Shown here in pieces: positions 20,249-25,288 of a stretch of DNA of 34,173 bases. The position numbers and the translations under genes are program-made. The DNA is from a virus. The DNA lies in IMG/VR virus record IMGVR_UViG_3300034418_001501, positions 1 through 34,173 of that record. One strand, given 5' to 3'. The notes beneath the pieces are model-generated. The model saw nothing but the letters and a program-made list of their open reading frames with translations. It was not told the DNA's origin and searched no databases. Every line of letters begins with the position of its first letter. Within the stretch, counting starts at the first letter, position 1.

Positions 20249-20274
20249 AAAAAAAAGGCGCCAAAAAAGGCGCC
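20249..20274 (-). terminator. Intrinsic terminator of the recombination operon
   Basis: Read leftward, GGCGCC, TTTTTT, GGCGCC, then eight T form a strong 6-bp GC stem with a U-tract. It follows the stop of the helix-turn-helix gene at 20292 by 17 bases and separates the recombination operon from the small-gene operon starting about 40 bases further on. Confidence 0.9.
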
Positions 20275-20291
20275 TGCTTAGCACAAGCCTG

Positions 20292-20552
20292 TCACTTAAA
20301 CAGGCGTTTGAACCAAGGCATCCATTCCTTTTCGTTCATGACATTTTCGAAACTTGGCTCTGGATCTCCATTCTTCCGAGGTCGGTACGATCGATAACTC
20401 AACTGCTGGCGCATTCGATATATCTTGTTAGAAATTGCCTTTTCGTTGCGGTCCAATTTCTCAGCGATCTCAGAGGTTGATGCGCCACGCTCACACATAG
20501 TTAGCAGGCGATTAATTTCTTTGATAGTCCAGTGTTTAGATTCTTTTTTCAT
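20292..20552 (-). CDS. Small helix-turn-helix (Myb/SANT-like) DNA-binding protein
   Basis: The product has 86 residues: MKKESKHWTIKEINRLLTMC, then GASTSEIAEKLDRNEKAISN and KIYRMRQQL. The W-T..E...L..........IA..L.R...AI.....R.+ pattern is a tri-helical SANT/Myb-like HTH common in small phage regulators. ATG at 20552 follows AGCAAGGAGCAGTT; an in-frame ATG seven codons earlier lies within that module. It is last in the recombination operon, directly before its terminator, and is a candidate regulator for the nearby palindromic operators (inference). Confidence 0.78.
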   Translation of the reverse strand: MKKESKHWTIKEINRLLTMCERGASTSEIAEKLDRNEKAISNKIYRMRQQLSYRSYRPRKNGDPEPSFENVMNEKEWMPWFKRLFK

Positions 20553-20581
20553 AACTGCTCCTTGCTGTTTCATGTGGAACT

Positions 20582-20998
20582 TTAAATAATTTTAACTCTG
20601 TCAATTGGAAAGTGTGCCATTGGCTCTAGGTCAGCCGGATCGTTACGATCCACCCTGCCGGTAAAGCTTATGTGCGATGGGTTTTCTAACAACAGCCACC
20701 CGGTACAGTCATCCCATTCAACAGCGAAGATTGTTTTTTTTCCGATCATGTTTAACTGTCTTGCCGCGTTTAGCTTGTGAAGCGCAACAAAGATGTCTGG
20801 GTACTGGCTCATTTTGTTGCGGCGACGTTTGACCTCAACAAATCCAGCAATCTCCTTACCCCTGATCGCAGCAAAATCTAAAACGTAGCTTGCAGGCAGC
20901 TTCCTGAAATCTGAAAACTCGAGGGCCGTGGCGACCCTCTCCATGATCTTGACCTCTGCCTGACGGTCATCTTCCTGCTCATATCTTGGCCTTATCAA
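20582..20998 (-). CDS. PD-(D/E)XK nuclease-like protein
   Basis: The 138-residue product has YVLDFAAIRGKEIAGFVEVK at about 38-57, followed by RRRNKMSQYPD. The D...(10-13)...EVK spacing on beta strands is the PD-(D/E)XK catalytic core (D42, E55, K57), and a later QLNMIGKKTIFAVEW strand fits the fold. It overlaps the SSB-like gene by ATGA. In a cassette with an annealing protein and 5'-3' exonuclease, a structure-specific or Holliday-junction nuclease role is plausible. The substrate is not shown. Confidence 0.72.
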   Translation of the reverse strand: MIRPRYEQEDDRQAEVKIMERVATALEFSDFRKLPASYVLDFAAIRGKEIAGFVEVKRRRNKMSQYPDIFVALHKLNAARQLNMIGKKTIFAVEWDDCTGWLLLENPSHISFTGRVDRNDPADLEPMAHFPIDRVKII

Positions 20999-21270
20999 AA
21001 CGGAATATCATCGTCGAAGTTGTCATCAACGGGCAACTGTTCTGGTAACTGCTCTGCTGGATTTTCTTGACGCTGGTAGGTGTCAACTTCAGCATAATAG
21101 TTGCCAGACCGGGCCTCCTTCATCTGCACCTTTATCTTGTCACCAGACTGAGTTGCAAGCCATGCAAGCATCTCTGCCTTGTTGATCACAATGTTGGCCT
21201 TGACGAAGTCAGGCGCTCGCTCGTCGGGCTTGTACACACGCAGACCATCTACCCAAATTTTATCTTCCAT
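20995..21270 (-). CDS. Putative single-stranded-DNA-binding protein with SSB-type acidic tail
   Basis: The product has 91 residues. An N-terminal beta-rich region (MEDKIWVDGLRVYKPDERAP, DKIKVQMKEARSGNYYAEVD) precedes a Gln/Pro linker (QLPEQLPVDD) and a terminus ending DDDIPF. Bacterial and phage SSB proteins end in exactly this acidic DDDIPF tail, which recruits partner proteins. At about half the size of typical SSB, with no OB-fold signature I can verify, it may be a minimal OB fold. Location between exonuclease and nuclease supports a recombination role. Confidence 0.75.
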   Translation of the reverse strand: MEDKIWVDGLRVYKPDERAPDFVKANIVINKAEMLAWLATQSGDKIKVQMKEARSGNYYAEVDTYQRQENPAEQLPEQLPVDDNFDDDIPF

Positions 21271-21271
21271 T

Positions 21272-21865
21272 TTATATTTCCCTTTTAGTTAATTTTTCTA
21301 ACGCTTTATTTTTCTTGCTTAGAAACTTTTCCATCTCTTTTTCCATGCCAGAAATCCATTCATCATCACGATAGACGCGAGTGCAGAAGGTGCCAATCGA
21401 TTGGGTATAGCTCAAGAAATCCCAATAGTCTTGTTCGCAAACCCACATGCACCCCTGCACTTGGCAGAAATGATCTGCCGGGACTTTTCCCGTTAACGCC
21501 CATTTGACATGGTTTTTGTCACGAGGGCATTTGACTTCTAGGTTCATTCGGTCAGGACTACAGCCATAAGTTTTGTCATTGTTCGTAACAAACCCAACAA
21601 TTGTAGTCTCGACGTTAAATTCCCATTCATAGATGCCAATTGCTTCGTCTTCGAGATCAAGTCCGCGTTGCATATCGTCCGTGACTTTTACAAACGTAGA
21701 TTGCCCTGAAAGCTGCTCAGCAATGAGCTCGTACATGTAATCGTCAGCAGATGTTGAAGGTTTTCCAGACGCTGTGAATATTTTTTTAAAGTTAGATGCC
21801 GTTGGCATTCCAAGCCTTAACGATAGCCACTCGTCTGTGCCTTGTTCGACCGTATGAACAATCAT
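21272..21865 (-). CDS. YqaJ / lambda-exonuclease-like recombinase nuclease
   Basis: The product has 197 residues. The family hallmarks are present: EQGTDEWLSLRLGMPTASNF near the N-terminus, the catalytic SPD....LEVKCP (D105, E110, K112), and DHFCQVQGCMWVC (131-143) with the conserved Gln. This enzyme resects one strand of double-stranded ends, giving 3' tails for the annealing protein encoded just upstream. Length is normal for the family. It overlaps the ERF gene by ATGA and ends one base before the SSB-like gene. Confidence 0.9.
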   Translation of the reverse strand: MIVHTVEQGTDEWLSLRLGMPTASNFKKIFTASGKPSTSADDYMYELIAEQLSGQSTFVKVTDDMQRGLDLEDEAIGIYEWEFNVETTIVGFVTNNDKTYGCSPDRMNLEVKCPRDKNHVKWALTGKVPADHFCQVQGCMWVCEQDYWDFLSYTQSIGTFCTRVYRDDEWISGMEKEMEKFLSKKNKALEKLTKREI

Positions 21866-22482
21866 GTGTTTTGATTACTTAACAAAGATGCGTTTCTTAT
21901 TTTTATTTTTTCGCACATATTGTCAAAGCTGCTTTTAGAAACTTCCATAAGTGAATTTATTTTGTATGCTTTTAAAAATTTTTCCTCACTGTCAGAACCA
22001 CCTTCTTCTAACATTTTTCTTAAAGTAACAATCTGCTTGTGATTTATGACCTTTGGGGCATCAGGCTCTTTTGATTTCTCAGAAACATTTAGGCTGTTGC
22101 CGTCATCATCTTCCTGAGCGACGTTGGCGAATGCGCTTAGAGAATACCGGCGAAGGTAGGTGATCAAAGATCCGGCAGCTTGTGCGGGATTCTTGGAGTT
22201 GGGATCAATCGCCATAGATATGTGCTCAGACATCCACTGACCGGATGTATGCACTAAGGTAGTGGTAACGCTTATCTCGCCGTCTGCGTCTGTTGACGGC
22301 GCTTGTATGACGGCTATGCCTGCTTCAGTAAATGCTGGACGGACCACATCGATCACACCGGCTAGGTCCGCGTACTTCGACTTGAAAAAATCGTTTTTCA
22401 CAGACTTGGTTGGGTTTTGAATCAGACCTTGGGCAACTACGAGTGCAGTTGCCAGTTCGTTGATTTGCTCGCTCATCTTCAT
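21862..22482 (-). CDS. ERF-family single-strand annealing protein
   Basis: The 206-residue product has the ERF core: ALVVAQGLIQNPTKSVKNDF, YADLAGVIDVVRPAFTEAGI, then TTLVHTSGQWMSEHISM and AAGSLITYLRRYSLSAFANV. ERF is the annealing protein of P22, partnering with nucleases to circularise and recombine phage DNA. AAGGAG lies seven bases before ATG. The C-terminal third is variable and helical, ending with a short basic/polar tail. It overlaps the upstream and downstream genes by ATGA. Confidence 0.9.
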   Translation of the reverse strand: MKMSEQINELATALVVAQGLIQNPTKSVKNDFFKSKYADLAGVIDVVRPAFTEAGIAVIQAPSTDADGEISVTTTLVHTSGQWMSEHISMAIDPNSKNPAQAAGSLITYLRRYSLSAFANVAQEDDDGNSLNVSEKSKEPDAPKVINHKQIVTLRKMLEEGGSDSEEKFLKAYKINSLMEVSKSSFDNMCEKIKIRNASLLSNQNT

Positions 22483-22838
22483 GCGTATGCTCCTTCAATT
22501 TCATAGAAATCTTCAAAATCCTGCTGGGTGCTATCAAATTTAAATTTGAAATCTGCTGGTATACCAGAGTAGCCCCAGTGATAGTCGATGTAATCGTCAC
22601 AGATTGGGAATCCGTTGCCAGTTAGATCGTCTAGCGACCATTCAATCCACTGAAAGAACTCGGGGAACTGCTTGATCAATACGCTTGAAGCAACTTTAAT
22701 TGCTCTTGACCGAGCCTTTATTGCTTCGAACCAAACATTTTGATCGTCGTTAGGAATAACTGATTTAACTCTACAAAGATGCTCGTAATGGCACCAAAGC
22801 GAGTACCACGGCTCTTTGGTTTCGTCGAAATTTTGCAT
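22479..22838 (-). CDS. Hypothetical early leftward protein (119 residues)
   Basis: The acidic, aromatic-rich protein starts MQNFDETKEPWYSLWCHYEH and contains VWFEAIKARSRAIKVASSVL and a C-terminal DYIDYHWGYSGIPADFKF. No known motif is evident. It is first in the recombination operon, read from the divergent control region, and its stop overlaps the ERF start. By place it corresponds to early accessory or anti-host genes; function unknown. Confidence 0.72.
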   Translation of the reverse strand: MQNFDETKEPWYSLWCHYEHLCRVKSVIPNDDQNVWFEAIKARSRAIKVASSVLIKQFPEFFQWIEWSLDDLTGNGFPICDDYIDYHWGYSGIPADFKFKFDSTQQDFEDFYEIEGAYA

Positions 22839-24790: not shown

Positions 24791-25288
24791 ATGAACAATA
24801 TCAAACATTTACCAATGCCAGACAGGTTAATTGCCGAAGAAGTACACCTAACCATTCACAATGTTGACGAGAAGGATAAGCTTTGGACTCTGTTGAAGCA
24901 GATTGATTTCAGCCAAGCGATGGATGTGTGGATAAAACCGCACGAAAGTGACCGATCACTTGATCAGAATAATCTGGTGGGCAAATGGTACAGAGACGCA
25001 GAGGCTCAGGGTGATCAAACTGCCGAGGAGTATCGAGCGTACTGTAAATTGCACTTTGGGGTTCCAATCATGCGGAAAGGTTCGGAGCGTTATCGAGAAA
25101 AGTATGACCGCTTGTTTAAGGATCGTTACACCTACGAAGAAAAATTGGAGTGGATGCAGGAGCCCGGGGATTATCCGGTAACTCGCGTGATGTCAGTGAA
25201 GCAGTTTGCTCAGTTTATGGACAAGGTCCGAGAGCATCTTGAGGGGCTTGGATTCCAACTGACTAACACTGACGAAATGTTTCGATGA
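24791..25288 (+). CDS. ninB: NinB recombination protein
   Basis: The product has 165 residues. The DKLWTLLKQIDFSQAMDVWI, KPHESDRSLDQNNLVGKWYR and DYPVTRVMSVKQFAQFMDKV segments match NinB, the lambda Orf recombination mediator, which assists loading of annealing proteins or recombinases on SSB-coated ssDNA. Length fits the family (lambda Orf is 146). It ends in ATGA overlap with NinG, the order of the lambdoid nin region. Its presence with ERF and an SSB-like protein supports phage-encoded recombination. Confidence 0.87.
   Translation: MNNIKHLPMPDRLIAEEVHLTIHNVDEKDKLWTLLKQIDFSQAMDVWIKPHESDRSLDQNNLVGKWYRDAEAQGDQTAEEYRAYCKLHFGVPIMRKGSERYREKYDRLFKDRYTYEEKLEWMQEPGDYPVTRVMSVKQFAQFMDKVREHLEGLGFQLTNTDEMFR

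Follow-up and report, generated by a model that had tools for sequence, protein, structure and literature searches.

A 91-residue phage protein with an SSB-type tail behind an ERF annealing protein: a candidate stand-in for single-stranded DNA-binding protein

Introduction

Modules that join an annealing protein to a single-stranded DNA-binding protein (SSB), namely erf-ssb, rad52-ssb and duf1071-ssb, are standard in Firmicutes phages (PMC8093625). The SSB of phage HK620 stimulates its annealing protein Sak4, and on removal of the last six SSB residues recombineering goes down 10-fold and the loading of Sak4 on SSB-coated ssDNA is blocked (PMC5928155). The C-terminal domain of lambda Red-beta binds lambda exonuclease as well as E. 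coli SSB; with the K253A substitution, SSB binding and in vivo recombination are both lost (PMC8303780). Phage SSBs are also targets of defence, as a phage SSB triggers the Hna system and SSB variants escape it (PMC13381803).

The DNA analysed here, called the window throughout and meaning the whole stretch, is an IMG/VR virus contig of 34,173 bases in which a small protein with an SSB-type tail is encoded beside annealing and exonuclease genes. The small protein resembles the HK620 SSB in being encoded alongside an annealing protein, the HK620 tail, which ends in PPF, being needed for stimulation; the HK620 protein is however a true SSB with a monomer of 21.3 kDa and is much bigger. The SSBs T7 gp2.5 and Enc34 ORF6 (DUF2815) likewise have a disordered C-terminal segment (PMC5686142), but they are larger OB-fold variants to which a Pfam scan of the window protein detects no similarity. 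In the literature we found no paper on the window family and no experiment on any of its members.

Gene and operon

The gene, hereafter the window gene, is the fourth in a leftward operon with the order 119-aa gene, ERF, YqaJ, window gene, PDDEXK_14 and then an HTH protein. The features used in this analysis are:

22479..22838, minus strand: 119-aa protein, first gene of the operon (ORF and family scans)
21862..22482, minus strand: ERF single-strand annealing protein (PF04404, 2e-23), ATGA overlap with the YqaJ gene
21272..21865, minus strand: YqaJ-type exonuclease (PF09588, 5e-16), 1-nt gap to the window gene
20995..21270, minus strand: window gene, 91-aa tailed small protein, candidate SSB stand-in (ORF list, selection, DNA pattern)
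21067..21270, minus strand: predicted folded core of the window protein, residues 1-68, b-b-a-b-b (AlphaFold2 and conservation)
20998..21066, minus strand: disordered linker and acidic C-terminal tail VDDNFDDDIPF (pLDDT 51-62; net charge about -8)
20582..20998, minus strand: PDDEXK_14 nuclease (PF24579, 2e-32), its start overlapping the window gene stop (TTGA)
20292..20573, minus strand: HTH protein at the cluster end (phrog_323; PF13936 weak)
20256..20275, minus strand: terminator-like hairpin 3' of the HTH gene (consensus scan only)
24791..25288, plus strand: NinB/Orf recombination mediator in a separate rightward operon (phrog_7283, 2e-25)

The product of the window gene is MEDKIWVDGLRVYKPDERAPDFVKANIVINKAEMLAWLATQSGDKIKVQMKEARSGNYYAEVDTYQRQENPAEQLPEQLPVDDNFDDDIPF, which begins at an ATG, is 91 aa long and has the C-terminus DDNFDDDIPF. 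Because AGGGA lies shortly 5' of this ATG, the junctions with the neighbouring genes are tight and synonymous changes dominate, we take the ORF at 20995-21270 to be a real gene; against near relatives it is under purifying selection (dS 0.09-0.15 vs dN 0.02). A degenerate DNA pattern for DDDIPF gave 1 match in the window and 0 in 100 shuffles. An earlier note made from the sequence had described a 91-residue protein with a DDDIPF end inside an ERF/exonuclease cassette, with NinB also encoded, and all of this was confirmed: the ORF, ERF and YqaJ as listed, and NinB by its PHROGs match on the plus strand. The rightward operon of the window carries O-like and P-like replication proteins, NinB, NinG and terminase. 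For the 119-aa first gene (22479-22838, minus strand) no family match was obtained in Pfam or PHROGs. The PDDEXK_14 protein is a second nuclease of the operon and a possible client of the DDDIPF tail.

In lambda, the gam gene is located in the left operon next to the exonuclease and annealing gene. The location of the window gene is similar, and it could on this ground encode a Gam/Abc-like protein, co-expressed with the recombinase, that inhibits or modulates a host nuclease or a defence system recognising the SSB tail. That phage SSBs are defence targets, as known from Hna (PMC13381803), would suit such a role. Yet nothing similar to Gam, Abc or a known inhibitor turned up in scans of Pfam, PHROGs and NCBIfam, and the sharing of its operon position with canonical SSBs, described below, is not predicted by it, and we consider this role quite improbable.

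Tail and body of the protein

The window protein ends in the acidic, IPF-terminated tail (NFDDDIPF) that is expected of bacterial SSBs. As to the domain models, no Pfam SSB match (PF00436) was found at E<=1, and TIGR00621 gave 16.1 bits, below its cut-off of 53.95. This match vanishes once the last 23 residues are removed, so that the label "SSB-like" in the earlier note holds for the tail and fails for the body. Compared with bacterial SSB (PF00436/TIGR00621), the protein shares the acidic linker, the DDDIPF C-terminus and an operon position that SSB takes in other phages, but it is half as long, its monomer model has no OB fold and there is no match to the SSB models when the tail is taken away.

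The body has a motif of its own, in short form F/W-x-x-G...APDFV...SI(K/N)...(E)W/K-x-N...G-x-x-Y and in long form K-x-F-V-D-G...P-x-E-N-A-P-D-F-V...S-I-K...W-x-N...K-E-S..G-K-W-Y. A profile of the family gathered 263 loci, which were reduced to 173 distinct complete proteins and then to 115 representatives at 85% identity. Among these 115, the core residues G9, P20 and Y59 are fully or almost fully conserved (100% each), V23 in 96% and F22 in 94%; in the tail P90 is conserved in 93% and F91 in 90%, and the linker drifts and is poorly conserved. The net charge of the core is about 0, with a family median of -1, compared with +3 for the canonical SSB cores of the control loci (among the matches listed). 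With its tail one of the best-conserved stretches and its core not basic, the protein could also be an adaptor or decoy: the body would bind ERF or YqaJ, not ssDNA, while the tail would attract host SSB-interacting proteins or contend for them with host SSB. Consistent with such a role, the phage tail DDFADDDIPF closely resembles the host SSB tail DDFSDDDIPF in one Lysobacterales genome. The idea that the tail copies that of the host was nevertheless rejected, as it is true in this genome, whereas in those of Aliivibrio and Cytophagaceae the phage tail departs from the host's. On this and the further evidence given below, we regard the adaptor or decoy as unlikely.

SSB partners normally need a free C-terminal F, and residues beyond IPF are thus unusual. 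Such extra residues (e.g. DDDIPFNKVEYIG) were seen in three family members (L053, L057 and L067) and likewise in two canonical SSBs (L265 and L266).

Weak matches of the window protein to spectrin SH3 and flagellin D3 were rejected. A fusion-protein reading was discarded too: PHROG 2544 and the 334-aa protein of PAK_P1 weakly match residues 32-91, but the PAK_P1 protein has no core motif in its C-terminal part and shares just the tail. This phrog_2544 protein of Pseudomonas phage PAK_P1 (L435:4269-5273) ends in VDDDIPF, is encoded close to an exonuclease and DNA polymerase I, and is a further candidate for a tailed SSB in a cultured phage.

Comparison with LFKND-type proteins

The LFKND-type family (phrog_18154/phrog_7364) bears the PHROGs name "single strand DNA binding protein". 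With tails removed from both, the profile of the window family aligned to that of the LFKND type with a hhalign probability of 92% and a score of 38, where none of 40 column-shuffled controls exceeded 12.8 and the profiles of ERF and Sak, which are unrelated, scored 14-18; with full alignments the profile-profile probability was 94%. The same comparison with phage canonical SSB gave a probability of 0.25%. Judged by these profiles, the window body and the LFKND-type family are remotely homologous. Direct HMM matches of the single window protein to these PHROGs (E values of 0.55 and 0.021) run partly through the tail and may be no better than chance. The two families are alike in length (LFKND-type 80-125 aa), in HPD[FYW]-x-G, which aligns with APDFV, in a similar strand-G-x-x-Y/F end of the core, in the acidic D[DE]IPF tail and in the position behind an annealing protein or polymerase; they differ in the extra helix and the KxFVxGL N-terminus, which belong to the window family.

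The SSB name is also borne by LFKND members of cultured phages, e.g. Acinetobacter phages, in the one examined of which the gene stands behind DNA polymerase. The PHROGs name may itself derive from the tail. Some LFKND members match DUF736 (PF05284) weakly; in one study of Mesorhizobium ICEs every element carries DUF736 genes (PMC8627217).

The family and its tail-less members

Scans of IMG/VR with four queries returned 23, 187, 370 and 442 relatives (overlapping sets). Bacterial genomes, ranging from Lysobacterales to Cytophagaceae, contributed six relatives, and 50,697 phage records contained a single clear match. For 97 to 98 of the 115 representatives, a neighbouring gene comes from one connected group of proteins, and on scanning 96 proteins of this group 45 matched Sak, 28 ERF and 4 Rad52. 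Thus most representatives stand beside annealing proteins, as does the window gene, which adjoins annealing and exonuclease genes on the same strand and in this respect has the arrangement of an annealing-protein/SSB module.

Six representatives (L034, L041, L051, L058, L127 and L149) truly lack the tail and are 68-74 aa long, with one of 95; no tailed ORF was present in the DNA fetched around them. DNA polymerase A is near most of these and an annealing protein near none. Tailed and tail-less members therefore constitute a natural experiment, in which tail and body are separable. The presence of the tail is correlated with an annealing-protein neighbour (Fisher p 4e-6), which is weak evidence because the loss of the tail may be a single clade with few events; the tree cannot reject that the tail-less members are one clade. 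The persistence of such members in another replication context is unexplained by an adaptor built around its tail.

The tail-less clade next to DNA polymerase A, together with the Acinetobacter phage LFKND relatives directly behind the phage DNA polymerase, could mean that the protein is a replicative SSB that serves mainly the DNA polymerase, recombination being a by-product of gene order. Against this, the operon partner in the window and in most relatives is an annealing protein, and the O/P-like replication genes of the window sit in the opposite, rightward operon; we hold a mainly replicative role to be very improbable.

Predicted fold

The AlphaFold2 model of the window protein (50 sequences) has a b-b-a-b-b core with pLDDT of about 90 or more at residues 11-60 and a disordered tail. 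A natural tail-less relative of 70 aa (L034) was modelled with the same topology as the window core (pLDDT 90.7, pTM 0.69). Foldseek against the PDB gave no significant match (best E 1.4 and 2.4), and VIA against the PDB gave nothing above Z 2.0, the best being SmpB at Z 2.0; no PDB relative with known ssDNA binding was thus found by either program. E. coli SSB (1eyg) reaches no better than E 3.8 in the Foldseek list, at an rmsd of 14 A. A search of predicted viral structures yielded, up to E 0.02, four small nameless proteins. The lack of a PDB match does not prove that the fold is new. As for the OB fold that the earlier note had proposed to look for by structure prediction, the monomer models give b-b-a-b-b instead, with 1eyg at the E value above; since these are models of monomers, the core may still adopt an OB-like arrangement as an oligomer. 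A truncated OB fold, where the strand-helix-hairpin would correspond to the second half of SSB, was considered and is unsupported by both the profile comparison and Foldseek.

The position behind the annealing protein

A control set of 80 ERF and 80 Sak loci was collected from IMG/VR using annealing-protein queries only (samples, among the matches listed), and an ORF was counted as tailed if its product had an acidic C-terminus of the form [ILVMC]P[FW]. On dividing the ORFs strandwise, 119 of 6487 were tailed on the strand of the annealing protein vs 2 of 6715 on the other (among the matches listed). For the same strand and the same listed matches, tailed ORFs made up 114 of 1347 within 2 kb downstream vs 3 of 3175 upstream. 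Considering the 136 control loci with at least 1.5 kb downstream (among the matches listed), we found the slot behind the annealing protein to be filled in 124: by LFKND-type proteins in 65, DK-type in 29, canonical SSB in 20, another tailed ORF in 7 and the window family in 3. By the slot and strand counts, the annealing protein is as a rule followed by a small protein that mostly bears a tail and comes with several bodies.

The DK type is a second uncharacterised tailed family, DKSRLYKGAKGTYLDLTTFVD...ILGNVKVFYTD...DEDIPF (phrog_24909), seen for example at L264:2668-2988, L270, L348 and L383 and in about 25 more control loci (among the matches listed). Profile comparison showed no link of it to SSB or to the window family (hhalign 0.6% with the latter).

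PF00436 was found in 0 of 50 window-family contigs (20-64 kb) vs 15 of 50 control annealing-protein contigs (among the matches listed; Fisher p 1.8e-5), both sets of contigs being possibly incomplete. There is also no PF00436 SSB elsewhere in the 34,173-base record of the window. Canonical SSB thus fills the same operon position in other phages and does not co-occur with the family, which is at odds with an adaptor or decoy.

Discussion

Our best explanation is that the window gene probably encodes a stand-in for SSB in the phage, that is, a non-canonical ssDNA-binding protein whose tail docks the phage ERF and/or exonuclease. YqaJ would resect DNA ends to single strands, which the compact b-b-a-b-b core would coat or mark; the flexible acidic DDDIPF tail would then bring ERF and/or YqaJ to the strand, and ERF would anneal it. 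The tail most likely binds the annealing protein or the exonuclease that the phage itself encodes; host SSB-interacting proteins need not be its partners but may be further clients. The analysis establishes the gene and the selection on it, the operon, the conserved tail, the linkage to annealing proteins, the sharing of the slot, the lack of canonical SSB in contigs with the family and the homology of the body to the SSB-named PHROGs family; for the window protein itself, we infer ssDNA binding, the oligomer state and the partner of the tail. Points against the explanation are the near-neutral core, less basic than that of canonical SSBs, the failure to find a PDB relative with known ssDNA binding, a PHROGs name that may derive from the tail, and the tail-less clade, in which body and tail are separated.

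The earlier note had left two branches, a minimal SSB or a decoy tail. We favour the former, because the position is shared with canonical SSB yet exclusive of it, and because the body is homologous to proteins named for ssDNA binding. The term minimal SSB has to be qualified in that the protein is not simply a shortened SSB, its body having no sequence or fold match to OB-fold SSB. Since the annealing-protein/SSB module is known and the homologous family is already SSB-named in PHROGs, we regard the window protein as a variant and not as a new module. What looks new is the family, the absence of a PDB match for its fold, and a slot that favours the tail while tolerating several bodies. We put forward, tentatively and with some doubt, that this one slot requires an SSB tail on which bodies are swapped (OB-fold SSB, the LFKND/window superfamily, DK), the window body being a non-OB ssDNA-binding fold of under 70 residues that is absent from the PDB.

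The analysis delimits a large phage family that had not been characterised and offers a prediction of what it does and with which partner. The natural tailed and tail-less variants make the role of the SSB tail in single-strand annealing directly testable. Window-type proteins could be useful partners in recombineering, where the tools depend on the pairing of annealing protein and SSB. A non-canonical phage SSB could also evade the defence systems that sense phage SSB and, if the proposal is true, many phages thought to be SSB-less encode an SSB under another fold.
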